From: a virus
Length of the DNA: 64,000 bases
IMG/VR virus record: IMGVR_UViG_3300042695_000536
Location: 1-64,000 of that record
Reading direction: 5' to 3' (one strand)
The translations under genes were made by a program, and so were the position numbers. Shown here piece by piece: positions 4,918-50,536 of this stretch (positions within the stretch are counted from its first letter, which is position 1; the number at the start of each line of letters is the position of its first letter). The notes beneath the pieces were generated by a model. The model saw nothing but the letters and a program-made list of their open reading frames with translations, searched no databases and was not told the origin of the DNA.

Positions 4918-5388
4918 ATGGAAAATTTAATTAATCTGTTAAAAACATTTCAAGCTAATTCTGTGGTATACACAAATTTAGTAAGAGGCTTTTTCTGGAA
5001 TACAGAATCTGTCTTGATGCGTCAATCACGCATTGTTTATGAAGATATCTATCTAGACTCTGAAGAGGGCGTACACAATACCTCAACATGGCTTCGCCGA
5101 TTAGGCGGAGAAGCGCCTTACACCCTAGAAGAGTATGCATCCAACCAAACTCTAGGAAATGTTAAGCCAGATACATACTGTGGCGTGGAAATGGCAATTC
5201 ACTTAGTTCCAATTAATAAGAAGATGATCGAAGAGATTAAAAACCTTATCTCTGTTGCAAATGAAAACAACGAGTACGGACTATCATCATATCTATCTGA
5301 ACGACTTTCAGCGCATCAAGAATGGAACTGGTTCTTGGAGTCAAGCCTAAAGCTTCCTCCTAACCCATGGAAGTCACTAAAAGACTAA
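4918..5388 (+). CDS. Dps/ferritin-like protein with atypical metal site
   Basis: 156 residues. The N-terminal helix pair (NSVVYTNLVRGFFWNTES, then ESVLMRQSRIVYEDIYLDSE, then WLRRLGGEAPYTLEEY) aligns with the Dps pattern of a Trp after the first helix and LGG-x-P at the helix junction. A C-terminal helix carries SAHQEWNWFLES. Dps proteins form 12-mers that oxidise iron and bind DNA. The usual His before the first Trp is Phe here and the second His is missing, so the ferroxidase site may be changed. AAAGGG lies about nine bases upstream of the ATG. Confidence 0.65.
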   Translation: MENLINLLKTFQANSVVYTNLVRGFFWNTESVLMRQSRIVYEDIYLDSEEGVHNTSTWLRRLGGEAPYTLEEYASNQTLGNVKPDTYCGVEMAIHLVPINKKMIEEIKNLISVANENNEYGLSSYLSERLSAHQEWNWFLESSLKLPPNPWKSLKD

Positions 5389-5389
5389 G

Positions 5390-6388
5390 TTGTCACAATA
5401 CAAGATCAGCGCAGTACAAATAGATGTAAACGGTCTATGTAATGCTGGATGTTGGTTTTGCCCAGTTTCTTATGAAGGAAACCCAAAATCTGCTATTAGA
5501 GATATGGAGTTGGGGGAGTTAGAAAATATACTCTCTCAACTTCATAATGGCAAAGGTGATTTTGTAGACCCTAATCTAAAAAACATTTATACAGCTAATT
5601 ACAACGAAGTGTTATTGTATAAAAACTTTGAAGAGATGTTTGATTTGTATAGAAAATATAACTTTACAATAAACATACTTACAAATGGTACTCCACTTAC
5701 CAAGAAAAAAGTTGATATAATTAAAAAAAATATCGATGTGATTGGTGGAATTCTTTTAAATATACCATCTGGAGATAAAACCAGATGGTCTAAGTATGTA
5801 AATTTAAATGAAAAAATGTTTGATAAAATGGTAGATAATGTTTTATATGCTGCAGAAGAACTAAATGAATTAGTTTTAGAAAATAGATTTTTTTTAATGG
5901 TTAATGGTCTAAATAATAATTCATTAGTTGAAAATGGTGGGTGGTTAGACATACTTCCTGGAGCCCCAGATTTAAATTTAGATGTAGAGTCTGGAGATTT
6001 AGCTCAAGAGGTTAAGCTATTAAAATCTATATTCCCTTCAATTGAAGTTTTCCCAGCCCACCATTTATACGACAGAGCAGGCCACCTTGCTGATTCAGGA
6101 ATAATTGATCAGACTTCAGCTATTAATAAATATTTGGCGGGAGAAGGCAAGAAGGTAATAGGATGCAATGGTGGATTAGGCGTAAGAAGCAGAACTAATG
6201 AGTGGATACATATTAACCCAAATGGTGACTTATTTATCTGCTGCGCTGATTTTGATTTTAAGACAGTGTACGGAAATTCTAATAAATCTACAATTAAAGA
6301 TATATGGTTTAGCAAAGAGAGAACAAACATGATAGAAGACTCATACTCTAATATGTGTACCAAGTGCTCAGCGGCCATCTGGGGCTAG
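5390..6388 (+). CDS. radical SAM enzyme with SPASM-type C-terminus
   Basis: 332 residues from TTG one base after the previous stop. The CNAGCWFC motif (Cys17, Cys21, Cys24) is the canonical CX3CX2C that binds the SAM-cleaving 4Fe-4S cluster. Additional Cys lie near the C-terminus (VIGCNGG, FICCADF and MCTKC), as in SPASM/twitch enzymes that carry auxiliary clusters. Such enzymes commonly modify peptides. The five short peptides directly downstream (6394-7081), three of them Cys-rich, are candidate substrates. That link is inferred. Confidence 0.85.
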   Translation: MSQYKISAVQIDVNGLCNAGCWFCPVSYEGNPKSAIRDMELGELENILSQLHNGKGDFVDPNLKNIYTANYNEVLLYKNFEEMFDLYRKYNFTINILTNGTPLTKKKVDIIKKNIDVIGGILLNIPSGDKTRWSKYVNLNEKMFDKMVDNVLYAAEELNELVLENRFFLMVNGLNNNSLVENGGWLDILPGAPDLNLDVESGDLAQEVKLLKSIFPSIEVFPAHHLYDRAGHLADSGIIDQTSAINKYLAGEGKKVIGCNGGLGVRSRTNEWIHINPNGDLFICCADFDFKTVYGNSNKSTIKDIWFSKERTNMIEDSYSNMCTKCSAAIWG

Positions 6389-7254: not shown

Positions 7255-8121
7255 TTGATTATAAATGGTAAAGAGATTGAGGTAGAAAAACTTCATGAAA
7301 AAGTTTGGGTGTTTAAAAATGCCCTAAGTAACTCTAATGAGATGCTAGAATACTACCTAAGTAACTATGAAGATAAGTCTGTACCTTGGTATACGTTTGG
7401 CTTTCATATATTAATACCAACATCCAGAGGATACTTTGAGTCATTTCCAAGCAAAGATGATTGGCAAAAGTTTATGGATGAAAATTTTTCTGATAAAGAA
7501 ATTGGAATTACAAATAATGAGTACGTTAAAGATTTGTTTAAAGTATTTCATGAATCTTCAGTTCAGTACTTTGGCTCAGTTAAAGTGGATTACGATAACT
7601 GGTGCTGGGATTCGGTTGATATAGCTTACTATAAAGACGGAATGGGCGTTAACGATTTCCAGGGCATGAACTACCACACTGATTTCCAAGAAGAAAGAAG
7701 AGAAGATCCTGGACTAAAGTTTGGAACAACATGCTTATTCTATTTGAATGATGATTATGAAGATGGTGGAGTAAACATTATAGAGCTAAGTGATGATAAG
7801 GAAGATCTACTCAGTCACGTATACTACAAGCCAAATGCTGGTGACTTAATAATGTTCCCTTCTGGTCACCCTTTTTACCATAGCCCAATGATTGCTAAGG
7901 GCGGATCTAAAGCGCTAATTAGAGCTTACTGGAGATACGAGTACCCAGGATCAGAAGCCTGGCATTCTGAAAAAGCTCAACACTCTGAAGAAGAGTGGAC
8001 AGAAATTCTTCGTGAAAGACACAAGGAAGGCTCTTATAATCAAGGAAGGAGCCTTAATAAGTGGAACGAGAAAATAATCGAGAACGGCTGGAACGAGAAC
8101 TTAATCAAGAAGGAAGTCTAA
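7255..8121 (+). CDS. 2OG-Fe(II) oxygenase, prolyl-hydroxylase type
   Basis: 288 residues from TTG, with AAAGGTAGG upstream. Iron ligands His141 and Asp143 (YHTDF) and His209 (FYHSP), with Arg223 as the likely 2OG anchor. The strand FYLNDDYEDGGVN and the PNAGDLIMFPSGHP segment are hallmarks of the P4H-like dioxygenase fold. These enzymes hydroxylate using O2 and 2-oxoglutarate. The C-terminal 60 residues are charged and extra to the core. The next gene starts within it, so the two are probably translated together. Confidence 0.85.
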   Translation: MIINGKEIEVEKLHEKVWVFKNALSNSNEMLEYYLSNYEDKSVPWYTFGFHILIPTSRGYFESFPSKDDWQKFMDENFSDKEIGITNNEYVKDLFKVFHESSVQYFGSVKVDYDNWCWDSVDIAYYKDGMGVNDFQGMNYHTDFQEERREDPGLKFGTTCLFYLNDDYEDGGVNIIELSDDKEDLLSHVYYKPNAGDLIMFPSGHPFYHSPMIAKGGSKALIRAYWRYEYPGSEAWHSEKAQHSEEEWTEILRERHKEGSYNQGRSLNKWNEKIIENGWNENLIKKEV

Positions 8122-8930
8122 AGCAGCTATATTTTTTGCACATACCAAAAACTGCTGGTAAATATGTATCTGCAAATATAAAGAAATCTTTAGATAAAAA
8201 TAATATACCTTACTACATAAGTACACACTATCCAAACAATAAAAATTTTGTTAACAAAGCCTACATATCTATGCATGCTGGTACCTATCCAATTGATCTA
8301 ATAGACTCTTTAGATGTTGCTGTTGTAGTAAGACACCCAGTTGAAGCTAGACTAAGCTATTTTAATTTTATATATAATCGTGCTCTTTTTTTAAGAGATG
8401 AGTATATTGAAAGAAAGTCCACGCTGGAAAAATTAAGATACTATCTTTTTGAAGATCCAAATTTTAAGCTACACAATAACTATCAATCCAGGTTTATTTG
8501 CAATTCAGCTGATGAGCGTTCATTTGATCCTAGAAGCTTTTACACAAAAAATCATGAAGAAATGATGGATCCATTTTTTAAAAAGGGAGAGGCGTTTACT
8601 TGGTTTGTTGGAAACGAAAAAACTTCTAAAGAAAATGCAATGGAAGCGATAAAAAAGTTTAAAATTGTAAACTCTTTAGACAATATTGCTATGTTTGAAA
8701 AAAATATCAGCGATTGGTTTAATAATAACTATCAAATAGAAATAGATTTTGACCAGAACAATCTTATAAACTACGGATCTTTTTCATACGGAGATGAGAA
8801 AAACATTACTACTGAATACCTGATGTCTCTTATATCTGAAGAAGACATTGATCTGATTATAAAAAATAATGATATTGATTACTTTATTTACAATTATGTG
8901 AAGGATAATGAGACAAATGGCATTTCTTAG
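8061..8930 (+). CDS. sulfotransferase-like protein
   Basis: 289 residues starting at GTG, preceded by AAGGAAGGAG nine bases upstream inside the previous gene. The motif LHIPKTAGK (26-34) matches the phosphosulfate-binding loop and VVRHPVEARLSYF (88-100) the second PAPS-binding motif of the Sulfotransfer_2-type families. These transfer sulfate from PAPS to sugars or proteins. The C-terminal half is acidic and diverged. Its neighbours on both sides are oxygenases, so an acceptor made by hydroxylation or glycosylation is possible. Confidence 0.75.
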   Translation: MERENNRERLERELNQEGSLKQLYFLHIPKTAGKYVSANIKKSLDKNNIPYYISTHYPNNKNFVNKAYISMHAGTYPIDLIDSLDVAVVVRHPVEARLSYFNFIYNRALFLRDEYIERKSTLEKLRYYLFEDPNFKLHNNYQSRFICNSADERSFDPRSFYTKNHEEMMDPFFKKGEAFTWFVGNEKTSKENAMEAIKKFKIVNSLDNIAMFEKNISDWFNNNYQIEIDFDQNNLINYGSFSYGDEKNITTEYLMSLISEEDIDLIIKNNDIDYFIYNYVKDNETNGIS

Positions 8931-9510
8931 AGGAGATCTGACTCCAAAAAAAGAGTTAGAAGATTTTAATTTTAGATTTAATAAAACTTATGATGTAGAT
9001 CATATTGCAGATGCTTTACAAAAATTTAGCTCTGAATGGCTAATTAATCAGAATAGGCAAAATGTGGTTTATGTAGGCAGAGCAAATCCACATGCACACA
9101 CACAAACATTTATAGTACAAGACCACAGCCTAGAGTGGGACTTTGGAACAAAGATAGATGCAGTCGTTAAAGACCAAAACATTTTTGATTTAGTCTCACC
9201 TATAGTAAAAGATCTAGAGTCAATCTACGGTGGCACTTCTGGAAGAGTCCTACTGATTAAGCTTGAATCCAATAAGGATGTTTCAGAGCATACCGATAGA
9301 GGAGATTACCTATCTACTGTAAAGAGATTTCATATACCGATTATAACAAATGATAGTGTTTATTATACTGTTAATGGAGAAAAAATTAACATGAAGTGCG
9401 GAGAATGTTGGGAGATAAATAACTTAAAGCCGCATTCTGTTTTAAATGATAGCAGCATAGATAGAGTTCATTTATTAATAGACATATTCCCAGATTCATC
9501 TAATAAATGA
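8908..9510 (+). CDS. aspartyl/asparaginyl beta-hydroxylase-like oxygenase
   Basis: 200 residues. The C-terminal half carries EHTDRGDY (His128, Asp130), RFHIPI, NLKPHSV (His176) and DRVHLLIDI (Arg186), the pattern of the Asp/Asn beta-hydroxylase family, which uses iron and 2-oxoglutarate. In other phages and bacteria this fold hydroxylates peptides. It overlaps the sulfotransferase-like gene by 23 bases and the next oxygenase by four. An internal ATG at 8917 is an alternative start. Confidence 0.8.
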   Translation: MRQMAFLRGDLTPKKELEDFNFRFNKTYDVDHIADALQKFSSEWLINQNRQNVVYVGRANPHAHTQTFIVQDHSLEWDFGTKIDAVVKDQNIFDLVSPIVKDLESIYGGTSGRVLLIKLESNKDVSEHTDRGDYLSTVKRFHIPIITNDSVYYTVNGEKINMKCGECWEINNLKPHSVLNDSSIDRVHLLIDIFPDSSNK

Positions 9511-10187
9511 AAAATATAAAATTAATTAACAACTTCATGTCTGAGGAAGACTCTTTGTTTTTAATAGACTGGATCGATAAAAATTCGGATGATGATTTAA
9601 AGTTTAAAAGTAGGGTCGGTATAGCCGTAAATAAAGGATTGGCATCTAGAGCAATATTCCCAGACCAAAAGCCCCCGTATTTGTTTAAAGATTTAGAGCC
9701 AATTATAAATAAGTATTCTAAAAAATTTATAGACATTGTTAAATCAGAATATAAAATAGATCAAGATTTATACTTTTATGGAGTTTCTATAACAAAACTA
9801 TCAAAAGATATACAGCTTAGAATACATCAGGACGTCCACAACGATTTCTCATCTTTAGTTTGGAGCTGTGTTATATACCTTAACGATAATTATTCAGACG
9901 GAGAAGTTGTTTTCTTGGAGAGCTTTGACGAAGCTGATTTCGAAGAATCTCCACATGCAGCGCGATACGGTAATACATTTTATTTATATAAAGATGGCGC
10001 AGGCGGTCTTGTGTGCAAGCCAAAAGCCTTGGACGCATTTGTTTTCCCAGCCGATCAATGGCACGGTGGCAGGATGATATCAGACGGAACTAAGTATGCT
10101 GTAATTCTATGGCTTGTTAAAGAAAAGGAATATGAATTTAAAGGTTTTGATTCTAGAGAAGTATTAAAAAATATATATAAGGATTGA
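9507..10187 (+). CDS. 2OG-Fe(II) oxygenase, prolyl-hydroxylase type
   Basis: 226 residues. Iron ligands His107 and Asp109 (RIHQDVH) and His186 (QWHGG), with Lys196 (GTKYAV) in the position that usually holds Arg to bind the 2OG carboxylate. The strand VIYLNDNYSDGE is present. A loop of about 30 residues (GAGGLVC region) is inserted before the distal His. It starts by an ATGA overlap with the previous gene. Confidence 0.82.
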   Translation: MKNIKLINNFMSEEDSLFLIDWIDKNSDDDLKFKSRVGIAVNKGLASRAIFPDQKPPYLFKDLEPIINKYSKKFIDIVKSEYKIDQDLYFYGVSITKLSKDIQLRIHQDVHNDFSSLVWSCVIYLNDNYSDGEVVFLESFDEADFEESPHAARYGNTFYLYKDGAGGLVCKPKALDAFVFPADQWHGGRMISDGTKYAVILWLVKEKEYEFKGFDSREVLKNIYKD

Positions 10188-10213
10188 CAGCTTTACCTAT
10201 AGTGCTGTATAAT
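10184..10213 (+). promoter_or_regulatory. consensus leaderless promoter
   Basis: TTGACA (10184-10189), 18-base spacer and TATAAT (10208-10213), then six bases to the ATG at 10220. Both hexamers are perfect. The frame opens earlier at 10184 but that codon lies in the -35. Confidence 0.85.
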
Positions 10214-10219
10214 ATAGAT

Positions 10220-10381
10220 ATGAATAACTTTATTATATTTGCCGCAGCTATATTTGCAGTGTGTGCTTACGTGGGAATAAAACTTTATAGAGAAATGTCT
10301 GTAATTTTAGATGCAAAAAGAATACAAGAGCAGTTCAAAAAAGATAGCTTTTGGGAAACACAAGAATCTTTTGAGGAGTAA
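10220..10381 (+). CDS. small single-pass membrane protein
   Basis: 53 residues. One hydrophobic segment (NNFIIFAAAIFAVCAYVGI) is followed by a charged helical tail. The ATG is chosen because a perfect promoter puts the transcript start on it. It is followed after six bases by the GroES gene. Function unknown. A membrane anchor or small lysis-related protein is possible. Confidence 0.7.
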   Translation: MNNFIIFAAAIFAVCAYVGIKLYREMSVILDAKRIQEQFKKDSFWETQESFEE

Positions 10382-10387
10382 TAACAA

Positions 10388-10684
10388 ATGATTAAGCCAT
10401 TTGGCAACCTGTTGTTAGTAAAAGAAGATAAAGTTGAGGACCGAACCACAACGTCTGGCATAGTTCTTATGGCATCATTAAGTGAATCTAACCTTAGAAC
10501 TGGTAAGATTCTAGAAATGGGAAACGGAGAATATAACTATAAAGGCGAGCTCATTCCTATAACGGGCCTCAATGTTAATGATATAGTTTATTACAACCAA
10601 AATAGCGGAACAGATATTGAAGATACAGATGGAGAAAAGTACTTACTTTTAAATACAAAAAGTGTGCTTGCAATAAAAGGATAA
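10388..10684 (+). CDS. groES-like: GroES-like co-chaperonin
   Basis: 98 residues, close to the usual 95-100. IKPFGNLLLVKEDKVEDRT and TSGIVL match the N-terminal strand and mobile loop that docks to GroEL, and the end has SVLAIK. No GroEL gene is visible here, so it would work with host GroEL. Phage T4 gp31 is the known precedent, needed to fold the major capsid protein. The gene is preceded by GAGGAGTAATAAC. Confidence 0.88.
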   Translation: MIKPFGNLLLVKEDKVEDRTTTSGIVLMASLSESNLRTGKILEMGNGEYNYKGELIPITGLNVNDIVYYNQNSGTDIEDTDGEKYLLLNTKSVLAIKG

Positions 10685-10873
10685 GTGTTGCGTAAACAAT
10701 TTAAGTTTAAAACAATTTTAAAATCTGTCAATTTAACTGTTAAAACTAAGTGTCCAGAAAAGTGGCTTCTTGTAGATAGAGAAACTGGTCAGGTTTACCA
10801 GGGAAGCGAAAAAGGACATTGGAACAGACTTGATCCAGTGATTAAAGACACAATAAATAAAGAAATGCTATAA
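10685..10873 (+). CDS. small basic protein, unknown
   Basis: 62 residues from GTG (TTG three bases later is an alternative). It is basic with a WLLVDRETGQVYQGSEKGHW stretch that looks like a small beta-sheet. It is directly after GroES with no gap and is probably in the same transcript. Its end contains the next gene's promoter. Confidence 0.6.
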   Translation: MLRKQFKFKTILKSVNLTVKTKCPEKWLLVDRETGQVYQGSEKGHWNRLDPVIKDTINKEML

Positions 10874-10874
10874 T
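10845..10874 (+). promoter_or_regulatory. leaderless promoter
   Basis: AAGACA (10845-10850), 18 bases and a perfect TATAAT (10869-10874), then six bases to the ATG at 10881. It lies at the end of the upstream gene. Confidence 0.65.
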
Positions 10875-10880
10875 TAATTC

Positions 10881-11681
10881 ATGACTACTCCAATAATTCA
10901 CGATATGCCTGGTGGCGTAATATACATTGAGAATGCATTTCCTAAATCTAAAGAGTTTTTAGATTTTGTGGAATCAAATGATCAAAACCCTGAAATTTTA
11001 AAAGTTTTTCCTTCATGGAGCACATGGATTAACGGTTATCCAGTTAGCTTAGATCCAAATGATTTGACAAAATGGGAACAGATATTCCCAGACAACGAGG
11101 GAGCTTTAGCGGGAGTTGCTAAACTGTTAGACTGGGACCTTTCTTATAATGAAAACAATGAATTTTGGCCCCGCAAAGACATTTCTAATTATGCTCAAGA
11201 AAGCAAAGCTCATCAATTGGCATTGCCAGCTATCAAAATGATAGAAGATGATTATATTAACGCTTTAAAAATTTGGTCAGAAAAGACAAACAATGATCTA
11301 CCGCATCACATAACCAGAAACTACTGTATTAGAAAGTATAGAATTGGTGGTTTCATGGGGCCACACATAGACAGAAACATTTTAAACCCAAAAAATTCTA
11401 TGGACTGGACATCTCTTATATACTTAAATGATGACTATGAAGGCGGAGAACTAGTGTTTGATCAGCTAGGATATTCAATAAAGCCTTCAGCTGGGAGCAT
11501 AGTTTTCCTTCCATGCTTGGTTTCTCATGAAGTTAGTGAAGTGATTTCTGGAAACAAAACTTATATATTTTTGTTTATGCATACTGGAACAGGAATAACT
11601 TCAGCTCTTGGAGAGCCTTACCAAAATATGGAAGAAAAGCTAATAAGTTTTAATAACAATAATACTATTGACAACATTTAG
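10881..11681 (+). CDS. 2OG-Fe(II) oxygenase, prolyl-hydroxylase type
   Basis: 266 residues. Iron ligands His162 and Asp164 (GPHIDRN) and His216 (LVSHEV), with Lys226 as the likely 2OG contact. LIYLNDDYEGGELVF and KPSAGSIVFLP are the typical core strands. The N-terminal 140 residues are a helical extension seen also in the enzyme at 49182 (PSWSTWINGYP resembles PSWKNWNSS). This suggests a distinct subfamily with shared substrate type. It is transcribed from its own leaderless promoter. Confidence 0.85.
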   Translation: MTTPIIHDMPGGVIYIENAFPKSKEFLDFVESNDQNPEILKVFPSWSTWINGYPVSLDPNDLTKWEQIFPDNEGALAGVAKLLDWDLSYNENNEFWPRKDISNYAQESKAHQLALPAIKMIEDDYINALKIWSEKTNNDLPHHITRNYCIRKYRIGGFMGPHIDRNILNPKNSMDWTSLIYLNDDYEGGELVFDQLGYSIKPSAGSIVFLPCLVSHEVSEVISGNKTYIFLFMHTGTGITSALGEPYQNMEEKLISFNNNNTIDNI

Positions 11682-13393: not shown

Positions 13394-13539
13394 TGAGCGA
13401 TATTGATCCTGACAGATCAATGCGTCTTAAATTAGTTATAGAAGAGATGCTTAAAGATATTGATATGAGCGGTGAAAAGTGGAATGATCGTGATAAAAAC
13501 GGGATCCCGTATTGGGAAAAAGAACGGGGTGACAAATAA
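13393..13539 (+). CDS. small charged protein, unknown
   Basis: 48 residues starting at the ATG overlapping the preceding TGA. It has an acidic helix followed by WNDRDKNGIPYWEKERGDK. It overlaps the next start by one base. Confidence 0.6.
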   Translation: MSDIDPDRSMRLKLVIEEMLKDIDMSGEKWNDRDKNGIPYWEKERGDK

Positions 13540-13766
13540 TGTGGTCATGGGTATTAGCTATTATAGGTGTAACAGGCATATTCTTTGTTGGTCGAAAGAC
13601 AATATGGGGATGGTGGGTTTTATTATTTAATGAGGCTTTGTGGATAGCATATGCCCTAATAACAAAGCAATATGGATTTATAGCCTCAGCAATAGCATAT
13701 GCAGCAGTTTATATTAGATCTTACATACACTGGTCGAAAGAGCCAGTAAATGAGATTCATCTATGA
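13539..13766 (+). CDS. small membrane protein
   Basis: 75 residues with three hydrophobic segments (WVLAIIGVTGIFFV, WWVLLFNEALWIAYALI and FIASAIAYAAVYI). The WGWWVLLFNEALWIAYA stretch resembles a fragment of PnuC-type transporters and small membrane proteins of actinophages. It could affect the membrane or nucleotide-precursor uptake. Coupled to genes on both sides. Confidence 0.7.
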   Translation: MWSWVLAIIGVTGIFFVGRKTIWGWWVLLFNEALWIAYALITKQYGFIASAIAYAAVYIRSYIHWSKEPVNEIHL

Positions 13767-14815
13767 ACAACGAAACAATTTATATATCTATAGCAGCATG
13801 CAAAGAAGAGTTTTTAGTTCAAACAATCAAAAGCGCACTAGCTAACGCAGACAATCCAGACCTATTGTATTTTGGAATAGCCAATATGGTTATAGATCAA
13901 AAAGACTTTTTGTCAGATCCAATATTTAATCATCCCAGACTAACCTATGTAGATATAAAGCATGAGCGCCCACTAGGCACTGGTATTGGTAGGATGATGG
14001 CCTCTATTATAAATTATAGAGACCATGAGTATTTGCTGCAAGTTGACGCACACAATGTTTTTGAAAAAGGATGGGACACTACCCTAAAGCAACACTATAA
14101 CGATCTGTTAAAGATTTGTGATAAGCCTATCATATCTACAAATCCTCTTAGATGGATAGATGGACCAAACAAAGAAGTATTTTTGCATAACAATTTGAGG
14201 GGTATGGCGGTAGACCCACTTGATTTTAAAACTGATGAAAATTTTGGTTCATTAAAAATACAGGTTATTTCCATAAATGCTTCCTCGTATGCAAACGCTC
14301 AAGTACCAAGCGAAGAAATGATGGATTATGCTTTTATTGAGGGTTGTCATGTGGATTGGCAAGAGGGTCAAGATTTTGTTGAGCACGGACTGATATTTGC
14401 TTCATTTATGTTTACAAAATTTGGTTTTACTCGTGAGCTGATGCATGATCCAGCAAACCCTTTCAACGGTGATCAAATTAATCTATCTTTTAGAGCGGGC
14501 ACTAGAGGATACAGAATGTTCTCAATCAAGAAGTGTATAATGTGGTCTAAAGACAAGTTTAACGATGGTAAGCTTTTGTCTGACGATGACTGGAGAACTC
14601 TTGATAGAGGCAAAATTGGAAAATTTAACGAAGTTAACTCTCAATTTGATCAAACTGAAATATTTTCTGGGGAATACCTAGGATATTGGGGAGCACCAAA
14701 CAAGGAATCAATTGCTGAGTATTATAATAAGATAGGGATAGATTTATCTAAATACTTTATATCAAAGAGAGAATACCTGGTTGGAAAAGGTGAGGGCGGG
14801 GGAACCAATGGATAA
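13763..14815 (+). CDS. GlcNAc-transferase-like glycosyltransferase (Gnt1-like)
   Basis: 350 residues. IYISIAACKEEFLVQTI and NPDLLYFGIANM are typical of the N-terminal nucleotide-sugar fold. LLQVDAHNVFEKGWD supplies the DxH/D metal motif (Asp95, His97). These match the GlcNAc glycosyltransferase family PF11397, which includes the Dictyostelium Gnt1 enzyme that adds GlcNAc to hydroxyproline of Skp1. It should use UDP-sugar in the cytoplasm. The many hydroxylase-like genes in the window make a hydroxylated protein a possible acceptor. Family assignment is from memory of the motifs. The acceptor is inference. Confidence 0.75.
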   Translation: MNNETIYISIAACKEEFLVQTIKSALANADNPDLLYFGIANMVIDQKDFLSDPIFNHPRLTYVDIKHERPLGTGIGRMMASIINYRDHEYLLQVDAHNVFEKGWDTTLKQHYNDLLKICDKPIISTNPLRWIDGPNKEVFLHNNLRGMAVDPLDFKTDENFGSLKIQVISINASSYANAQVPSEEMMDYAFIEGCHVDWQEGQDFVEHGLIFASFMFTKFGFTRELMHDPANPFNGDQINLSFRAGTRGYRMFSIKKCIMWSKDKFNDGKLLSDDDWRTLDRGKIGKFNEVNSQFDQTEIFSGEYLGYWGAPNKESIAEYYNKIGIDLSKYFISKREYLVGKGEGGGTNG

Positions 14816-29649: not shown

Positions 29650-30300
29650 TTAATTTTTGTAAAAGTTAGGTATTTTTATAAAAGCTGGAAGTACATATCT
29701 TGTAGGTCCTTCTGTTACAAATCTTACTCCATGCTCCCATTCTGGATCCCCACCAAATAGTAAAAGATCTCCAGGTTCTGGTTTCATTTCAAATCCTTTT
29801 TTAGCCCAAAAAATTTCACCACCGTTATAATCATTATTTATGTATATAACTCCAGCGTGTTGTATGGATTCATCTGTATTTTGATCATGATGAGATACTA
29901 GCTGTACCCCATCATACATTCTCTGTATAAAATAAAATCCACTTAGTAAAAGCCCTTCTTTGGTTTTTTCAAGCACATCATTAAATCTTTTATCTATTCT
30001 TCTATGTATATCTGAGTTAATGAAGGATACGTTTTTATCATTCCAGTTTAATGTTACTTCGTATAAACCTTCTTTAACTAAATTTTCTATATCTTCCCTG
30101 CCAAATTTTTCTTTTGTAAAAACCTTTAGCTGGTCTGTATACCACTTATCCCATTGTTCTTCAGAGGTGTTATTTATTATACCCATGTATTCTTCAATGT
30201 CTTCTTTCGTTATAAAGTTTTTAACAACAAGCAATCCATCAATAGGAGTTTCTACGGTATATCCGCTTTCTTCAAATTCTTTTTTCATCCAAGTGGTCAT
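29650..30300 (-). CDS. 2OG-Fe(II) oxygenase, prolyl-hydroxylase type
   Basis: 216 residues on the minus strand. Iron ligands His137 and Asp139 (SHHDQN) and His190 (EWEHGV), with Arg201 (GPTRYVLP) for 2OG. VIYINNDYNGGEIFW and KPEPGDLLLFGG are the core strands. It is the only such gene on the minus strand, paired with a TylF-like methyltransferase just upstream in its operon (12-base gap), which suggests joint action on one product. Confidence 0.85.
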   Translation of the reverse strand: MTTWMKKEFEESGYTVETPIDGLLVVKNFITKEDIEEYMGIINNTSEEQWDKWYTDQLKVFTKEKFGREDIENLVKEGLYEVTLNWNDKNVSFINSDIHRRIDKRFNDVLEKTKEGLLLSGFYFIQRMYDGVQLVSHHDQNTDESIQHAGVIYINNDYNGGEIFWAKKGFEMKPEPGDLLLFGGDPEWEHGVRFVTEGPTRYVLPAFIKIPNFYKN

Positions 30301-30312
30301 AGTATTATTGTA

Positions 30313-30945
30313 TCATTCCTTCCACATAATAGCTTGGCCAGTAGGTAGCTCAAGTATATTGTGATCTTCAAAAGCGTCTTTTACAGCTTTTCTAGATCCT
30401 TCTGTTTTGTAAGAACCGTAGTCATCACATATTAATACTCCGCCAGAAACTATTTTAGGCCAAAAATATTCTATTGATTCTTTTGTTGGCTCGTATAAAT
30501 CTACATCTACATGTACAAATGAATACTGTTTTTCTTCAAGGTCTTTAAATACTTCTGGTATCCAGCCTTTTTTTAATTCTATATTTTTGTATCTAGATAG
30601 GTTATTTTTTGCCCACGCCATTTCAGATTTTAGTTTTACTGTTTTAAAGTATTCTGTATCAAACTCTCCTGGCTCAGAAACGCCTTCCCAAGAATCAATT
30701 CCTATAAAAGATTTGTTGCAAAACTCGGCGGTAAAGAACATTGTCATTCCAGCATAAACACCAGTCTCAGCAAAGTTTAAATTTGGATTGATTACAGATT
30801 GATGTTTTGCCAGCTGTCTTAATATAGATATTCTTCCGTACTGAGCATTGTCCATAGAATTCTGTATGTTACATATTAAATTAAAATCATTATGTAGTTT
30901 TACAAAATCTTGGTCTTCAGTCCATCTGCTTAAATATGAGTCCAT
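30313..30945 (-). CDS. TylF/MycF-like O-methyltransferase
   Basis: 210 residues. NFAETGVYAGMTMFF (SAM loop, about 58-71), IGIDSWEG, FVHVDVDLYEPTKESIEYF (144-161) and GGVLICDDYGSY match the macrocin O-methyltransferase (TylF) family, which methylates sugar hydroxyls on metal-bound substrates. It could methylate a phage-made glycan. It shares an operon with the 2OG oxygenase at 29650. Confidence 0.82.
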   Translation of the reverse strand: MDSYLSRWTEDQDFVKLHNDFNLICNIQNSMDNAQYGRISILRQLAKHQSVINPNLNFAETGVYAGMTMFFTAEFCNKSFIGIDSWEGVSEPGEFDTEYFKTVKLKSEMAWAKNNLSRYKNIELKKGWIPEVFKDLEEKQYSFVHVDVDLYEPTKESIEYFWPKIVSGGVLICDDYGSYKTEGSRKAVKDAFEDHNILELPTGQAIMWKE

Positions 30946-43202: not shown

Positions 43203-44747
43203 ATGGCATCAGGCAAGAGAATAGGTAAAAAGTCCCAAGCGTCAAATGACTTCTTGGAGCCATTAGCACCAACAGGTGTTGTTGGAACAAACGTTGGAAC
43301 AGGAAGAGCATTTAATGACGGTGCCGTATCTGTAGCGTTTTCTTTACCAGCCCTTTCTCCTAATGCCACTTCTTTTACAGTAACAGCAAGCACAGGACAG
43401 ACAGCAAGTGGAGCAGCATCTCCCTTGACAGTAACTGGAATTGCTTCAGGAGCAACTCCAACATTTACAGTAACAGCAACTAATGCTGCAGGAACTTCTG
43501 CTGCATCTGCTGCTTCTGCTGCAGTAACCGTAACAACAGTTCCACAAGCACCAACCGTAACAGCGGTTAACGTAGGAACAGGCCGCCCATATAACAATGG
43601 TGCAGCTACTATTACAATAACAGGTGGATCAAATGGTGGTTCTGCAATTGGTGGCTTTACTGCTACATCGAGCCCAGGTTCTTTTACTGCTTCTAGCGGT
43701 TCTCCACTAACCGTAACGGGACTTGCATCAGCAACAGCTTATACTTTCAGCGTAACAGCAACAAACGCTAACGGAACTTCAACATCTACAACATCAAACT
43801 CGATTACAGCAACTACAGTTCCACAGGCACCTACAGTAACAGTAGCAGACGTAGGAACAGCACGACCATATAATAATGGTGCAGCTACTATTACAGCAAC
43901 AGGCGGGGCAACTGGTGGTTCTGCAATCACATCTTACACTGCTACATCTGGCTCCTTTTCAGGGTCTGGATCTTCTCCAGTAACTGTTCAATCTCTTCTT
44001 TCAGCAACCTCTTATGCTTTTACCGTAACAGCAACAAATGCCAACGGAACTTCAGCAGCTACAACATCGTCATCAATTACAGCAACTACAGTTCCTCAAG
44101 CCCCACAATCACTCACTGCAACTGCTGGTGTTAATCAAAATACAATTAACTGGCAAATAGGAGCTTCTGGAGGATCTGCATTAACACGACATAATGTTAC
44201 TGGATCAGATGGATCTTCATCTGGAGATTTAGCGGCTAATGCAACTTCTGTAGTTATTGCTGATACAGCAAATACTTCTCAAACATATTCAGCTACAGCA
44301 ACTAATGCTAATGGAACTTCCTTGGCTTCAAATAATAGTGCTAATATTACTACCATAGCACCGTTCTTCCCATTCTTCCCGCCGTTCTTCCCACCGTTCT
44401 TCCCGTTCTTCCCACCGTTCTTCCCACCATTCTTCCCACCGTTCTTCCCACCGTTCTTCCCGTTCTTCCCACCATTCTTCCCACCGTTCTTCCCACCGTT
44501 CTTCCCACCGTTCTTCCCATTCTTCCCACCGTTCTTCCCACCATTCTTCCCACCGTTCTTCCCACCGTTCTTCCCACCATACTTCCCATTCTTTAAGGGC
44601 CCGTCCTTCCCATTCTTCCCACTATTCGGACCGTTCTTCCCACCATCATTCGGACCGTTCTTCCCATCATTCGGACCGTTCTTCCCATCATTCGGACCGT
44701 TCTTCCCACCGTTCTTCCCATCATTCGGTGGCTGGGGCGGATACTAA
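43203..44747 (+). CDS. adhesin-like protein with Ig/Fn-type repeats and a long Phe/Pro tail
   Basis: 514 residues. Four Fn3/Ig-like repeats, three with the phrase TVPQAPTV and PYNNGAATITI or similar, and the fourth different, occupy about 1-380. The last about 125 residues are almost only Phe and Pro in FFPPFFP patterns with a few Gly, Ser and Tyr, ending GGWGGY. The tail is unlike the rest in composition. It is the last fibre gene before the oxygenase cluster, so its prolines are candidate substrates. Confidence 0.8.
   Translation: MASGKRIGKKSQASNDFLEPLAPTGVVGTNVGTGRAFNDGAVSVAFSLPALSPNATSFTVTASTGQTASGAASPLTVTGIASGATPTFTVTATNAAGTSAASAASAAVTVTTVPQAPTVTAVNVGTGRPYNNGAATITITGGSNGGSAIGGFTATSSPGSFTASSGSPLTVTGLASATAYTFSVTATNANGTSTSTTSNSITATTVPQAPTVTVADVGTARPYNNGAATITATGGATGGSAITSYTATSGSFSGSGSSPVTVQSLLSATSYAFTVTATNANGTSAATTSSSITATTVPQAPQSLTATAGVNQNTINWQIGASGGSALTRHNVTGSDGSSSGDLAANATSVVIADTANTSQTYSATATNANGTSLASNNSANITTIAPFFPFFPPFFPPFFPFFPPFFPPFFPPFFPPFFPFFPPFFPPFFPPFFPPFFPFFPPFFPPFFPPFFPPFFPPYFPFFKGPSFPFFPLFGPFFPPSFGPFFPSFGPFFPSFGPFFPPFFPSFGGWGGY
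44360..44737 (+). repeat. TTCTTCCCA-type tandem repeats encoding FFP
   Basis: About 40 near-identical TTCTTCCCA, TTCTTCCCG and CCGTTC units form the Phe/Pro-rich tail. Later copies become FGPFFPSFGPFF. The high identity at third positions points to recent expansion. Confidence 0.9.
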
Positions 44748-44826: not shown

Positions 44827-45531
44827 ATGGAATGGTACGACCTACCAAGAATTGAAAAAACAAGTTCAAGAGTTGAGTCAAAAAAAATTGACGATAATAT
44901 ACTTGTTGAGAACCTAGACTACGGCATAAACCTTTATAGAAATGCAATAAGTCAAGAAGACTGTCAAAGAGTAATCACTATGCTTGAAGAAGAAATATCT
45001 TTAGGCAAAAACGGAATTCAATGGCATGGCGCAAAAGTTAATGGAAAAGAAAGAACTACTCACGCTAGAAATTGCTATGATTTAAAATTTAAAAAAGATC
45101 AGCTGGGTAAATATATTTCTGACAGCGATGTTTTAAAAGAATGCTACGATATTGTTGATGTAGGTTTAAATAAATCATTAAGACATTATGAATCAGTGTG
45201 GAATTTTACCATTAACTATAAAGAAGCATTCAACTTTGTAAAGTATTTGCCAGGAGAATTCTTTAAGATACATGCTGATCATGGTCCTTATTACACATGT
45301 ACAGTATCTGCAGTTGTTTATTTAAATGATGATTATGAAGGTGGAGAAATTGAATTTCCTCGCCATAATCTTACATTAAAACCAAAGGCGGGGGACATAA
45401 TTTTGTTCCCCTCTAACTTTGTTTATGAGCATGCTTCTTTAAATGTATCCTCTGGAACAAAATACTCTGTAGTTGTTATGATGGACTATAATGATCTTTA
45501 TCATAAAGAAGAGACTGGAGAAACTTATTAA
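44827..45531 (+). CDS. 2OG-Fe(II) oxygenase, prolyl-hydroxylase type
   Basis: 234 residues. Iron ligands His149 and Asp151 (KIHADHGPYY) and His202 (VYEHAS), with Lys212 (GTKYSV) in the 2OG site. YLNDDYEGGEIEF and KPKAGDIILFPSNF are textbook P4H-like strands. First gene of six such enzymes after the Phe/Pro-rich tail protein. It shares features with the enzyme at 46285 (KYSVV/KYSIV and DHGPYY/DHGYSY), so the two are close paralogues. Confidence 0.87.
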   Translation: MEWYDLPRIEKTSSRVESKKIDDNILVENLDYGINLYRNAISQEDCQRVITMLEEEISLGKNGIQWHGAKVNGKERTTHARNCYDLKFKKDQLGKYISDSDVLKECYDIVDVGLNKSLRHYESVWNFTINYKEAFNFVKYLPGEFFKIHADHGPYYTCTVSAVVYLNDDYEGGEIEFPRHNLTLKPKAGDIILFPSNFVYEHASLNVSSGTKYSVVVMMDYNDLYHKEETGETY

Positions 45532-46288
45532 AATATTATTTCAGCCATTTAGACCATGGCTAAATAAGTTCAGCTCATCTTTGCCCAAGCCTACACAGAG
45601 TACTATACCAGATTGGTATAAAGAAGCGGATAGGTTTGCAAAAATGCCAAACGGAGAATACTATAAGGCAACAAAAGAAATTTGTCCAGTTCCAAGAGAA
45701 GGAACATCAAATGACTATGGTAAAATTCCAACATGGAAAGCTTGTCCAGCTATACTAGATGCTTTTATGACAGGATATGTATTAAGCACTCCGTGCGATT
45801 TAGAATTTAAAAAAGACAAATATGGTAAAATAAGAGTTGACGTAAAAGATAAAAAGCATATCGGTTTTGTTTCAGAAAGAACTCCAATGGATCAGTTTCC
45901 ATCTCCAATTGGGTACTACGAAGAGCATTTTGCTTGGTACCCAGAGTGGGGCATTCAGGTTCCAGAAGGATACAGCGCTTTGTTTATGACACCTATGAAC
46001 AGATTTGACTTACCCTTTTTGAATACAAGCGGAGTTGTAGATACAGATAAGGTTCATCTACTAGGAACATTTCCATTTTTTATTGCAAAGGATTGGGAAG
46101 GAACAGTGCCAAAAGGCACCCCATTTTTACAAATATTACCGTTTAAAAGAGAAGACTGGGATCACGATATAGAGTTTTTAAGTGTAAACGAAATGCAAAA
46201 AAGATTAATAGACAATGCAAAATTTTATCGTCAGCCTGACGGTGGAGTTTATAAATCAAAAATTTGGAAAAAGAGAGAGTATAAATGA
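45491..46288 (+). CDS. beta-rich protein, DUF6065-like possible
   Basis: 265 residues, overlapping the preceding gene by 41 bases. STIPDWYKEADRFAKMPNGE, KACPAILDAFMTGYVLSTP and LLGTFPFFIAKDWEG recall a phage family I associate with DUF6065, but I am not certain. It is interleaved between two oxygenases and shares a beta-sandwich pattern with the gene at 46976. It might present a substrate or be a partner. The first 20 residues are basic and hydrophobic. Confidence 0.55.
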   Translation: MIFIIKKRLEKLIKILFQPFRPWLNKFSSSLPKPTQSTIPDWYKEADRFAKMPNGEYYKATKEICPVPREGTSNDYGKIPTWKACPAILDAFMTGYVLSTPCDLEFKKDKYGKIRVDVKDKKHIGFVSERTPMDQFPSPIGYYEEHFAWYPEWGIQVPEGYSALFMTPMNRFDLPFLNTSGVVDTDKVHLLGTFPFFIAKDWEGTVPKGTPFLQILPFKREDWDHDIEFLSVNEMQKRLIDNAKFYRQPDGGVYKSKIWKKREYK

Positions 46289-46995
46289 CAACAGAAACTA
46301 AAAGCATAGCCTCTACTTGGAGCAGCAAAGAGCAGCTAGCCCCAGGTATATTTGTTTATAGAGACGTACTTAAAAAAGAACTTGATATTATCAATAGGCT
46401 TGAAAGTTCTGTTGGGCCAGTAGGAACTAAAGAAAAAAGATATACTTTCCAGCCAGCTTATGTTGGATATCAGCAATTAATGCCAGACTATAGAGATTGT
46501 GTAGATTTTAAATTTAAAAAAAGTGATATTGCTTTAGATAAAAGTGAAGATGCAATGAAGCTAAAAGAATTGTGGCAGGATGTGTATGATGTTCAATATC
46601 CAGCAGTTGTAGACTATTGCAAAGCACACAATATAATGGAGCTTAAATATTGGGAAGCTTTTAATTTTATTAAATATGGAGAAAGCCAACATTTTATGGA
46701 GCACCAAGACCACGGATATTCTTATAATTGCGTTGTGTCCTTGGTTGGTTATGTTAACGATGACTATGATGATGGAGGATTGTATTTTAGACTTCAGGGC
46801 CTAGATATTAAGCCAAGAGCTGGAGACCTTTATATTTTCCCATCTAACTTTATGTACCCTCATCAAGCAAAAGCTGTAACCAAAGGAACAAAATATTCTA
46901 TAGTAACTATGCTTGACTATAGTAAAAAATTTCATACTCAAGAGATGTATGATCCAAAATGGGATAACGAAATCAATGAAAATAACAGCCTATAA
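46285..46995 (+). CDS. 2OG-Fe(II) oxygenase, prolyl-hydroxylase type
   Basis: 236 residues. Iron ligands His140 and Asp142 (MEHQDHGY) and His193 (YPHQAK), with Lys203 (GTKYSI). The strand YVNDDYDDGGLYF replaces the usual YLNDDYEGGE. Start overlaps the previous gene by four bases (ATGA). Close paralogue of 44827. Confidence 0.85.
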   Translation: MTTETKSIASTWSSKEQLAPGIFVYRDVLKKELDIINRLESSVGPVGTKEKRYTFQPAYVGYQQLMPDYRDCVDFKFKKSDIALDKSEDAMKLKELWQDVYDVQYPAVVDYCKAHNIMELKYWEAFNFIKYGESQHFMEHQDHGYSYNCVVSLVGYVNDDYDDGGLYFRLQGLDIKPRAGDLYIFPSNFMYPHQAKAVTKGTKYSIVTMLDYSKKFHTQEMYDPKWDNEINENNSL

Positions 46996-47698
46996 AAATA
47001 AACAGACTAGGTCTAAAATAGAACAAACTAAAGTTAAAAGAGACTGGATGGATGAAACTCTAAATGCCCATGCATACAAATGTTTTCCAGTTTCTTTGGC
47101 AAATACAATTGGTTGGTCAATCTCATTTTTAGATGATATTGAGTTCAGTTGGGATGGTATTTCAGATACGACTCCAGATCATGTAAAGATAATATCGGAT
47201 CCAGCACAAGTCGCTACTGGCCAAAGAGCAAATGGCACAATTAGTTTTTACTCTGGGTTTTTCTTTGAGACGGATCCAAATGTTTCAATGCTTCAAATAG
47301 TTCCTCCTAATTTTTTTGTAGATGGAGCTACTCCGTTTACAACAATTATTTCAACATCTGTTTTGACAGAAGGAATACCAATTGCATGGAAAATAACAAG
47401 ACCAAATACAGTTATTAAAATTCCAGCAGGTATGCCTGTAGCAACATTTATTCCCATATCTTTGTCAGAGTATCAAAATGTAGAGCTTGAAATAAAAGAT
47501 AAAGTTTTTTCAGATTTAGAGCATAAACGTAGAAATGAAAGATTAAAGGTTTGGGACGAAATTACTCAGGCAGGCGAATTTACAAATTTTTATAGGGATG
47601 CAGTAGATTACGATGGCACTCCTATGGGAAGCGGCCATCATGAGGTTAAGTCTTTAAAGTTGAAGATTACAGACCTTACTTCAGGCAATAAGAAATGA
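46976..47698 (+). CDS. beta-rich protein, DUF6065-like
   Basis: 240 residues from ATG 46976, chosen because earlier ATGs lie inside the preceding oxygenase. The sequence HAYKCFPVSLANTIGWSISF and SWDGISDTTPDHV is of the DUF6065 type (assignment from memory, moderate). It is probably a distant relative of the 45491 protein, since both have a Cys-Pro start and a Trp-rich core. Its end contains the next promoter. Confidence 0.6.
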   Translation: MKITAYKNKQTRSKIEQTKVKRDWMDETLNAHAYKCFPVSLANTIGWSISFLDDIEFSWDGISDTTPDHVKIISDPAQVATGQRANGTISFYSGFFFETDPNVSMLQIVPPNFFVDGATPFTTIISTSVLTEGIPIAWKITRPNTVIKIPAGMPVATFIPISLSEYQNVELEIKDKVFSDLEHKRRNERLKVWDEITQAGEFTNFYRDAVDYDGTPMGSGHHEVKSLKLKITDLTSGNKK

Positions 47699-47710: not shown

Positions 47711-48442
47711 ATGAATCAGACAAATCAAGACGCTTCAGTCGTATACAAAACCCCTTCCTTAACCCCTTCTGGGTTTTTTGGGTCAAGCAAAGACATGATA
47801 GTTGAGATAGAAAACTTTATGACCGAGGAAGAGATAGAGTTTCTCGAATCAGCTGCCAGAAAGATTACTATTTGGGATGTAACAGAAAGCCATGTAAATG
47901 AAAATGGTACAACTGTATACGACGCTAACTACTGGAAAGATAGAGTTTGCACAAGCCCTTCTTTAGACAAAAATGACCCAGCAATTAGGCCAGTTCTTCA
48001 AGGTTTGTTTGAAAGGCTAAAGCCTATTGTTGAAGATTTTTATAAAGTTAAAGTAACTCCAACAGGCACAACAATTGTTCGCTGGCTTCCTGGCCAATTT
48101 CAAAAGCCTCATGCCGACAAAGAGCTTCACGAGCTGCCAGATATTGGAATGCCAAATGATTTTCCTTATTATGATCTTTCAAGTTTATTTTATTTAAATG
48201 ATGAATACGAAGGTGGAGAATTATATTTTCCACTACAGGGAGTTCAATTTAAACCTAAAAAGGGAGCAGCTTATTTTTTCCCAGGCGATATGAATTATAT
48301 CCACGGAGTAACTGAAATTAAAGGTGCTATAAGATACACTTGTCCATTTTTCTGGGAAATCTTAGAGCATACTGGAGAAAACCAACCAGATCCAAATAAA
48401 AAATATCATAGAATACTACTAGATGGAGATATAAATAAATGA
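47711..48442 (+). CDS. 2OG-Fe(II) oxygenase, prolyl-hydroxylase type
   Basis: 243 residues. Iron ligands His134 and Asp136 (KPHADKEL) and His198 (YIHGV), with Arg208 (AIRYTC). SLFYLNDEYEGGELYF is the P4H core strand. The N-terminus (SGFFGSSKDMIVEIENFMTE) ends in the IENFMTEEEIEFL helix seen across this group. Overlaps the next gene by four bases. Confidence 0.87.
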   Translation: MNQTNQDASVVYKTPSLTPSGFFGSSKDMIVEIENFMTEEEIEFLESAARKITIWDVTESHVNENGTTVYDANYWKDRVCTSPSLDKNDPAIRPVLQGLFERLKPIVEDFYKVKVTPTGTTIVRWLPGQFQKPHADKELHELPDIGMPNDFPYYDLSSLFYLNDEYEGGELYFPLQGVQFKPKKGAAYFFPGDMNYIHGVTEIKGAIRYTCPFFWEILEHTGENQPDPNKKYHRILLDGDINK

Positions 48443-49182
48443 GTACTTCAGAAAGATTAACGCCAGACATTTTAGTATTTAAAAACTTTTTAACAAAAGA
48501 AGAATCTAAAAAAGTTATAGATGTTTTAGAGGCGCAGGTTGCAAATGAAAAACTATCTTGGACACCTATCACTTTCTATGAATCATACTCATCAGTTTTG
48601 CCCCAAGACGGGGATGAAGAGCTAGAGCAGTTCGGCTTGCCATCAGATTTCTTTTCAGTTCTTCAAAATAGAATTATTGATGCTGTAGCTGAGGTGCATG
48701 GAAATTCTTCATCTGATATTCATAAAATTGGATTTCATGCTCAAAAGTGGGAGCCAGGAGCTTATGCTAAAGAGCATTCTGACAATACAGATTTAGAAGG
48801 AAAAACAGGCCCGTTTGAAAGAAGTAGATACGCAGCTTTCTTGTATCTAAATGATGATTTTGAAGGTGGCAATCTAATATTTAATAAACAAAACCATACA
48901 CTAGTTCCAGAGACTGGCACACTTGCATCTTTTGCAGGTGGCTTTGATAATACTCATGAGGTTACAATGATAACTTCTGGCATAAGATATACACTCGGAT
49001 CATTTTGGGATAATCGGTCACCAGAGTCATATCCTCAAGAAACAATAGATGCCTGGGATGCAGAAATGAAAAAGATTAGAGAAGAGCAAGAAGTAATAAA
49101 GTCGGAATGGCAAGATGCATTAAAAGAAGGATACAGAATAGATCTATACGGAAATAAATACAAAATAGAGGAGAACGACTAA
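48439..49182 (+). CDS. 2OG-Fe(II) oxygenase, prolyl-hydroxylase type
   Basis: 247 residues. Iron ligands His113 and Asp115 (KEHSDN) and His173 (NTHEV), with Arg183 (SGIRYTL). FLYLNDDFEGGNLIF and PETGTLASFAGG are core. The C-terminal 50 residues are a charged helix unique to it. Starts by ATGA overlap. Confidence 0.87.
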   Translation: MSTSERLTPDILVFKNFLTKEESKKVIDVLEAQVANEKLSWTPITFYESYSSVLPQDGDEELEQFGLPSDFFSVLQNRIIDAVAEVHGNSSSDIHKIGFHAQKWEPGAYAKEHSDNTDLEGKTGPFERSRYAAFLYLNDDFEGGNLIFNKQNHTLVPETGTLASFAGGFDNTHEVTMITSGIRYTLGSFWDNRSPESYPQETIDAWDAEMKKIREEQEVIKSEWQDALKEGYRIDLYGNKYKIEEND

Positions 49183-49940
49183 TGAAGCTAGAAGAAAAAT
49201 TACATGAAAATGTTTACATGTACTCAGATGTAATTGAGAATCCACAAGCAATTATTGATTTGATAAATAAGCTAGATTCTGATGAAAGAGTTCACAAGGT
49301 TATTCCAAGCTGGAAAAACTGGAATTCAAGCAGCAGAGACGGTAACATCTTCGGAAAGAAAAAGGACTTTAATCTTTCTGAAGTAGAAAATTTAGATGAA
49401 GATATAAGAAAAGACGTAGACTTTATAATATCAACAATTAGAAATGCTATTAAAAATATATCAGAATCTTTTATTGTTGACAGAGGACTTAAGGGAGTTC
49501 CAAACGTATCACCATTTGTAGGTATCCAAAAATATATTGAAGGTTGTGCAATGGGCGCACACTTTGATAGACAGGCTGGAGATAACAGCTTAGAGTGGTC
49601 GATTATTATTTATTGGAATGATGACTACGAAGGCGGAGAGATATCATTCGTTATCAGACCAGAAGATCTGAGATTAGAAATGAATGGTCATCTTAGACCA
49701 CCAGATGATGCGCTAGATCCAAGAACAAAAGACATGGTTACATTTACTGCAAAGCCAAAGGCTGGAAGCGCATTGATATTCCCGTCCACAGATCCATACA
49801 AGCACCAAGTTCATATCATGAAATCGGGAGAGAAGTTTATTACTCCTGGATTCATTTTTGTTGATGGGTATGTTGTTGGAGGTCCAGGAGGACCATCAGA
49901 AGAATATATCAAGGCCTATCACGAACAAAATCAGGAATGA
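49182..49940 (+). CDS. 2OG-Fe(II) oxygenase, prolyl-hydroxylase type
   Basis: 252 residues. Iron ligands His127 and Asp129 (GAHFDRQ) and His208 (YKHQVH), with Lys218 (SGEKFIT). IIYWNDDYEGGEISF is present, followed by an unusual about-40-residue insertion (HLRPPDDALDPRTKDMV) before the distal His. Related to the enzyme at 10881 by its N-terminal PSWKNWN region. One-base overlap with the previous gene. Confidence 0.85.
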   Translation: MKLEEKLHENVYMYSDVIENPQAIIDLINKLDSDERVHKVIPSWKNWNSSSRDGNIFGKKKDFNLSEVENLDEDIRKDVDFIISTIRNAIKNISESFIVDRGLKGVPNVSPFVGIQKYIEGCAMGAHFDRQAGDNSLEWSIIIYWNDDYEGGEISFVIRPEDLRLEMNGHLRPPDDALDPRTKDMVTFTAKPKAGSALIFPSTDPYKHQVHIMKSGEKFITPGFIFVDGYVVGGPGGPSEEYIKAYHEQNQE

Positions 49941-49948
49941 TTTAACCA

Positions 49949-50536
49949 TTGCCAGATTATAAAATTGCAAAGTTATCTGATCAAGTTTATGAAATACAAA
50001 ACTTTTTAACAAAAGAAGAACTTGATCAGGTAATGCAATTTATAAAAGCAAGGGGCGATTCAGACTGGCATGAAGAAAACATTACTTACGATTTCTGGAA
50101 AGATAAAGTTTTAAATAGCAGTTTTATAAATGAAGACCCAATGTTTATTAAGATTTATGATAGAGTCTGTAGATTGTTTACTGGTTACGTACAAGTGACT
50201 GGAATAAATTTACAAAGATACTTGATAAACGATGCCCTAGGAGAGCATACTGACGATCATGAGGGCCATAGAATTAACGATGAAAAAATTTTTTATGGTG
50301 TAGTTATTTACTATAACGATGACTATAAGGGTGGAGAACTAAATTATCCAGATCTTAAAATAATTCATAAACCAACTGCAGGGTCATTGCTTTTACATGG
50401 AGGAGAAATACTTCACGGAACGCTTCCAGTTCAAGATAATATAACTAGATATATGTCTACAATGTTTGTAAAGCATAAACTAAATGAAGTTGTGTCTTTA
50501 AATAAAGATGTTTTTGGAGAAATAAATGGAATATAA
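49949..50536 (+). CDS. 2OG-Fe(II) oxygenase, prolyl-hydroxylase type
   Basis: 195 residues from TTG, the smallest of the group. Iron ligands His100 and Asp102 (GEHTDDH) and His156 (ILHGTL), with Arg167 (NITRYMS). IYYNDDYKGGELNYP and KPTAGSLLLHGG are core. Last of six enzymes. The next gene, a methyltransferase, starts inside it. Confidence 0.85.
   Translation: MPDYKIAKLSDQVYEIQNFLTKEELDQVMQFIKARGDSDWHEENITYDFWKDKVLNSSFINEDPMFIKIYDRVCRLFTGYVQVTGINLQRYLINDALGEHTDDHEGHRINDEKIFYGVVIYYNDDYKGGELNYPDLKIIHKPTAGSLLLHGGEILHGTLPVQDNITRYMSTMFVKHKLNEVVSLNKDVFGEINGI

Follow-up and report, generated by a model that had tools for sequence, protein, structure and literature searches.

A Gnt1-like glycosyltransferase gene in a phage rich in prolyl 4-hydroxylase-type genes and its possible role in decorating Phe-Pro fibres

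Results

The window analysed here, the whole 64,000-nucleotide stretch at positions 1 to 64,000 of IMG/VR virus record IMGVR_UViG_3300042695_000536, encodes a Gnt1-like glycosyltransferase of family PF11397 (13763-14815), a fibre-type protein ending in a Phe-Pro repeat tail, and a large set of prolyl 4-hydroxylase (P4H)-type oxygenases. From the sequence, the initial annotation had assigned the 13763 protein to PF11397, suggested that it might act on hydroxyproline, and proposed a chain of hydroxylation, glycosylation and further decoration. The transferase, the fibre and the oxygenase island that follows the fibre are as follows.

13763..14815, plus strand: Gnt1-like glycosyltransferase (PF11397), 350 amino acids from an ATG start; DxH at residues 95-97, D237-Q238, and Ser replacing the His of YHxY
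43203..44747, plus strand: fn3 fibre-type protein with a C-terminal Phe-Pro repeat tail, the proposed hydroxylation substrate
44827..45531, plus strand: P4H-type 2-oxoglutarate (2OG)-Fe(II) oxygenase (PF13640), first gene past the fibre
45491..46288, plus strand: phrog_7084 protein (PHROG match) within the oxygenase island
46285..46995, plus strand: P4H-type oxygenase (PF13640)
46913..47698, plus strand: DUF6065 protein within the oxygenase island
47711..48442, plus strand: P4H-type oxygenase (PF13640)
48439..49182, plus strand: P4H-type oxygenase (PF13640)
49182..49940, plus strand: P4H-type oxygenase (PF13640)
49949..50536, plus strand: P4H-type oxygenase (PF13640)

Profile searching bore out the family assignment. 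The 13763-14815 open reading frame matched PF11397 at 77.7 bits (E 1.5e-21; gathering cut-off 21) over profile positions 93-271, with a second, N-terminal match to profile positions 1-37 and the DxH motif present as D95-A-H97; a search of the whole virus record (72,284 bases) found this single PF11397 gene, matched as two pieces in one frame. No other Pfam family, of the GT2 group or otherwise, matched the protein at E <= 0.01, so that the refuting case named in the initial annotation did not arise; no NCBIfam model matched it, and its only PHROG match was phrog_24687, 'glycosyltransferase'. Searches of the PDB with the protein sequence or its profile returned nothing meaningful, a comparison with 50,697 phage records gave zero matches, and a genome scan with the single protein as query found zero relatives; relatives were recovered by scanning with an alignment that included plasmid homologues. 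An AlphaFold2 model built with 38 aligned relatives as input reached a mean predicted local distance difference test score (pLDDT) of 87.5, and its best PDB fold matches were polypeptide N-acetylgalactosamine (GalNAc)-transferases (E 7e-9, template modelling score of ~0.5 on the query, 12-14% identity). The model thus says protein O-glycosyltransferase fold, a prediction that specifies neither acceptor nor sugar, and the gene product is probably a GT-A enzyme belonging to the polypeptide sugar-transferases of PF11397 (GT60-type).

The polypeptide GalNAc-transferases of family GT27 carry a DxH motif whose D and H, together with a later His, bind the metal, while a later acidic-amide pair touches the sugar. 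Most aligned PF11397 members have GEE followed by YHxY, a signature derived from the alignment made here rather than a curated PF11397 criterion; the window protein instead has GDQ and WSKD, and its clade has GDQ and WS/WT-K. By analogy with the GalNAc-transferases, the clade is predicted to retain the acidic-amide pair and to have lost one expected metal ligand. The ratio of nonsynonymous to synonymous substitution rates (dN/dS) within the clade was 0.10-0.33 where dS could be estimated; this purifying selection indicates that the gene is functional and maintained. A close relative of the transferase (62%) lies on a 3-kb contig (L095) filed under a Flavobacteriaceae metagenome-assembled genome and is probably phage sequence binned there.

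Oxygenase genes proved as numerous as the initial annotation had said: the window encodes ten PF13640 proteins, all with the HxD motif (10/10), and one Asp/Asn beta-hydroxylase of PF05118. The 44827 P4H belongs to one orthologue group spread across ~40 divergent phages, with H149, D151, H202 and K212 invariant in 40 sequences, and has an HxD...H 2OG-Fe(II) fold; both by profile and by fold, the solved structures nearest to it are protein prolyl hydroxylases. Its PDB profile matches were prolyl and lysyl hydroxylases, and the top fold match of its model was the prolyl hydroxylase of chlorovirus PBCV-1. The phrog_7084 and DUF6065 proteins inside the island are related to each other, and both are retained in the related phage contig L485.

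A candidate substrate for these enzymes, absent from the initial annotation, is the fibre-type protein at 43203-44747, which has fn3 repeats. The tail, 129 residues long, comprises 59 Phe, 50 Pro, 9 Gly, 5 Ser and 0 Thr, the portion upstream of the tail is 34% Ser+Thr, and six PF13640 genes lie downstream on the same strand. Scanning viral DNA for the codon pattern of FFPPFFPPF matched at least 120 stretches, forming 108 clusters at 90% identity; among the Phe-Pro matches listed, 83 of the 108 clusters had a P4H gene within the flank examined. PF13640 was present in 47 of 50 Phe-Pro records longer than 15 kb, often in six or more copies, versus 3 of 35 random viral records (Fisher test, 1.4e-16). 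Since these control contigs, drawn by random k-mers, were not habitat-matched, two further controls were added, one comparing the two sides of the repeat and the other confined to phages sharing the portal gene of the window. A P4H gene lay within 1 kb downstream of the repeat in 30/64 cases and within 1 kb upstream in 0/54, and P4H genes at Phe-Pro loci were on the same strand 198 times and on the opposite strand 11 times. Among portal-sharing phages with 9 kb upstream of the portal covered, and counting FFxPP repeats too, 23 had both a P4H island and a repeat, 10 had neither and 5 had P4H only (p 6e-6); these five P4H-positive loci showed no Phe-Pro repeat in the flank examined, L544 among them having its repeat farther out. 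Altogether, this linkage makes the Phe-Pro tail, in our judgement, a likely P4H substrate. Collagen, on which P4H enzymes usually act, was dropped as a candidate, the window containing zero Gly-X-Y runs.

Viral contigs often encode Phe-Pro fibre proteins, mostly ahead of P4H islands (the window protein and loci L181-L300), and the literature searched nowhere mentions a Phe-Pro repeat in a phage. The termini beyond the tail vary, being Lys, Cys-rich, chaperone-like or Hint-like. Intein/Hint-like domains follow the tail in L249 (2140-3861), L291 (3566-6481), L187, L210, L211, L221, L236 and L257, the assignment resting on weak Pfam matches (E ~0.002) in L249 and L291 and made by eye elsewhere.

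Alignment-based scans of viral contigs recovered at least 500 PF11397 relatives, and in three lineages fibre, P4H and PF11397 genes form a single same-strand cluster (L249/L473-481; L291/L264/L398-403; L484-485). Reading from the fibre gene onward, L249 has P4H, a second gene and PF11397; L291 has P4H, DUF6171, a GT2-like gene, an epimerase and PF11397; and L264 has P4H and PF11397. In L485 the fibre gene is followed by PF11397, flanked on either side by an unassigned gene, and then by P4H genes; gene for gene, this island corresponds to that of the window (44-62% identity for the best pairs) and encloses the PF11397 gene. Sequence identity between PF11397 proteins from different lineages is 19-32% over the aligned parts, and the PF11397 tree scatters the proteins of Phe-Pro phages over separate positions, with at least three changes on the starred branches. 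When PF11397 was clustered at 60% identity, a P4H gene was found within 2.5 kb in 16 of 50 phage clusters versus 65 of 1680 random windows, and a Phe-Pro gene as well in 4 of the 50. A family-wide link between PF11397 and P4H was rejected, since only 16/50 phage and 5/44 bacterial clusters had such a neighbour. Outside these phage clusters, an Azospirillum plasmid carries a PF11397 gene (L010, 7998-9221) next to genes of phage-tail-sheath and VgrG type, which may point to another injection particle that is decorated.

The remaining oxygenases of the window, and the genes beside them, lie closer to the transferase than the fibre island or stand alone with a methyltransferase.

7255..8121, plus strand: 2OG-Fe(II) oxygenase (PF13640) of a second island, closer to the Gnt1-like gene
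8061..8930, plus strand: protein with sulfotransferase-like motifs by eye, no profile match
8908..9510, plus strand: Asp/Asn beta-hydroxylase-type oxygenase (PF05118)
9507..10187, plus strand: 2OG-Fe(II) oxygenase (PF13640)
10881..11681, plus strand: 2OG-Fe(II) oxygenase (PF13640), closest to the Gnt1-like gene (2.1 kb upstream)
29650..30300, minus strand: 2OG-Fe(II) oxygenase (PF13640) adjoining the TylF-type methyltransferase
30313..30945, minus strand: TylF-type O-methyltransferase (PF05711/PF13578)

Of the decorating enzymes named in the initial annotation, TylF at 30313 was recovered (PF05711, E 5.5e-12), while the sulfotransferase at 8061 and the FkbM protein at 50526 found no Pfam, PHROG or NCBIfam match at E <= 0.01; the 8061 protein has a sulfotransferase-like 'FLHIPKTAG ... 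VVVRHPVEARLSYF', seen by eye only. In relatives, a 2OG oxygenase remains within ~2.5 kb of the transferase. In L019, one of these relatives, the transferase, the 8061 protein and the 8908 protein are 75%, 69% and 58% identical to those of the window, whereas ferritin, radical-SAM and most small neighbours are ~90-99% identical; such greater divergence might be expected of genes for surface decoration. Upstream of the second oxygenase island, a Dps/ferritin-like gene adjoins a radical-SAM/SPASM gene (4918-6388; 95-99% identical in L019), and positions 2227-3471 encode a predicted secreted, Ala-rich coiled-coil protein with a signal-like N-terminus and zero Pfam matches. The host is likely to be an actinobacterium, as the portal protein shares 57% identity with those of Streptomyces phages; we infer a freshwater setting for the virus.

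Discussion

The data are compatible with a phage route that decorates virion proteins by hydroxylation and then glycosylation, with the PF11397 enzyme as the glycosylating step, a reading that we hold tentatively, at a little under even confidence. Going by the strong linkage described above, P4H-type oxygenases would hydroxylate prolines in the Phe-Pro tails of fn3 fibre-type proteins such as that at 43203-44747; going by the gene order in relatives, a PF11397 enzyme would then add an N-acetylhexosamine (HexNAc)-type sugar to the hydroxylated fibre. Because the window tail has 0 Thr and only 5 Ser, hydroxyproline would be the most likely acceptor on it, and it is our leading candidate overall. 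The window transferase has its gene outside the fibre island, so it may act on the fibre or on a product of the nearby 7255-11681 oxygenases. The chain put forward in the initial annotation is thereby partly supported: same-strand PF11397/P4H/Phe-Pro clusters in three distant lineages favour its first two steps, and the sulfotransferase and FkbM parts are left without profile support. That support is genuine and comes from these relatives, not from the window's own gene order.

Among the closest known parallels is the Skp1 PhyA-Gnt1 system of Dictyostelium, Toxoplasma and Pythium, in which a prolyl 4-hydroxylase and then a GT60/PF11397 transferase act on one protein. In a Pythium-type plant pathogen, as cited in PMC8724618, hydroxylase and transferase form one dual-function protein, whereas in some phages they are neighbouring genes. 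The Skp1 system is eukaryotic, modifies a single site and serves oxygen sensing, whereas the phage fibre offers prolines by the dozen as possible sites, with as many as ten oxygenases to act on them. The published acceptors of PF11397 members are Skp1 hydroxyproline, for which the acceptor was demonstrated (PMC6939170), or mucin Thr (PMC6939170, PMC8724618, PMC3769586). The Golgi polypeptide alpha-N-acetylglucosamine (GlcNAc)-transferases of Trypanosoma cruzi and Dictyostelium are likewise GT60 enzymes with protein acceptors (PMC3769586, PMC8724618); they differ in working on Thr within the Golgi. The T. cruzi enzyme depends on Mn2+, whereas the window clade is predicted to lack one metal ligand. 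The GT27 enzymes, for all their similarity of fold, have a ricin-type lectin domain that would not fit in a 350-amino-acid phage protein, and the profile of the phage protein gives no PDB match at the sequence level. The P4H of PBCV-1 is a viral protein hydroxylase, as the 44827 protein is predicted to be, but it belongs to an algal virus, and we know of no transferase paired with it or Phe-Pro substrate for it. P4H genes of the same kind in aquatic viruses have been called auxiliary metabolic genes, their viral use one that 'remains cryptic', and collagen in tail fibres has been named as a general substrate (PMC9301287); a Phe-Pro fibre is proposed here instead, in a window that has no collagen repeats.

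Several observations weigh against the hydroxylation-glycosylation route, and there are competing explanations for the enzyme. It could be an O-glycosyltransferase for virion or other phage proteins with Thr or Ser as acceptor, as in the T. cruzi and Dictyostelium Golgi members, P4H being a separate modification of the same fibre. GT60 contains the T. cruzi Thr-specific enzyme (PMC3769586, PMC6939170), mucin-type transferases are the nearest folds, the L291 and L249 fibres have Thr-rich linkers, with Thr- and Thr-Pro-rich stretches, that offer an alternative acceptor, the window fibre is rich in Ser and Thr ahead of its tail, and one sister phage carries PF11397 without any PF13640. Yet the Phe-Pro tail has no Thr at all and PF11397 recurs in tight clusters with phage P4H genes, and we regard a Thr/Ser acceptor as unlikely, if the most serious of the competing explanations. 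PF11397 was present in only 6/50 Phe-Pro records (versus 0/35 random records, p 0.04) and in 0/16 P4H-bearing sister records; together with the P4H-free sister, these counts make the link between PF11397 and Phe-Pro islands recurrent but optional, and the notion that every such island has a PF11397 gene was rejected.

The window gene itself lies 28 kb from the fibre, with the nearest oxygenase 2.1 kb away. It overlaps the stop codon of a gene for a small membrane protein (13539-13766), and its surroundings, outside the structural region, are small genes whose order is shuffled in relatives. This position, and the 34/50 phage PF11397 clusters with no P4H within 2.5 kb, would also suit an enzyme acting on the host, on a surface glycan or some other target, whose role might for instance be to block superinfection, its P4H company arising from freshwater phages collecting both; an anti-superinfection or DNA-protection role has been proposed for the glycosyltransferases of Nanopelagicales phage isolates (PMC10202952). 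The presence of PF11397 genes within fibre clusters in three lineages and the polypeptide transferases as closest fold make this rather improbable. The active site, too, counts against the route: the conserved YHxY His, at an expected metal-binding position, is Ser or Thr throughout the window clade, two close relatives have DxQ instead of DxH, and CGH replaces DxH in the L485/L177 lineage. That the window clade branched off into a degenerate or metal-independent form and lost the ancestral activity nevertheless seems very improbable to us, given strong purifying selection, a well-predicted fold and the DxH retained in the window protein.

For the hydroxylation-glycosylation route, the fullest form of the proposal, which we advance only tentatively and at less than even confidence, is that freshwater actinobacterial phages run prolyl hydroxylation and sugar transfer on Phe-Pro fibres as a viral, prokaryotic counterpart of Skp1 PhyA-Gnt1, placing a hydroxyproline-linked sugar on virions. 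Aquatic phages carry many prolyl hydroxylase genes; the Phe-Pro fibre supplies a specific, testable substrate for them, and the PF11397 clusters suggest what comes after hydroxylation. Were this shown, glycosylation through hydroxyproline would no longer be confined to eukaryotes but would reach phage particles, and it might influence how these very common viruses encounter their hosts.
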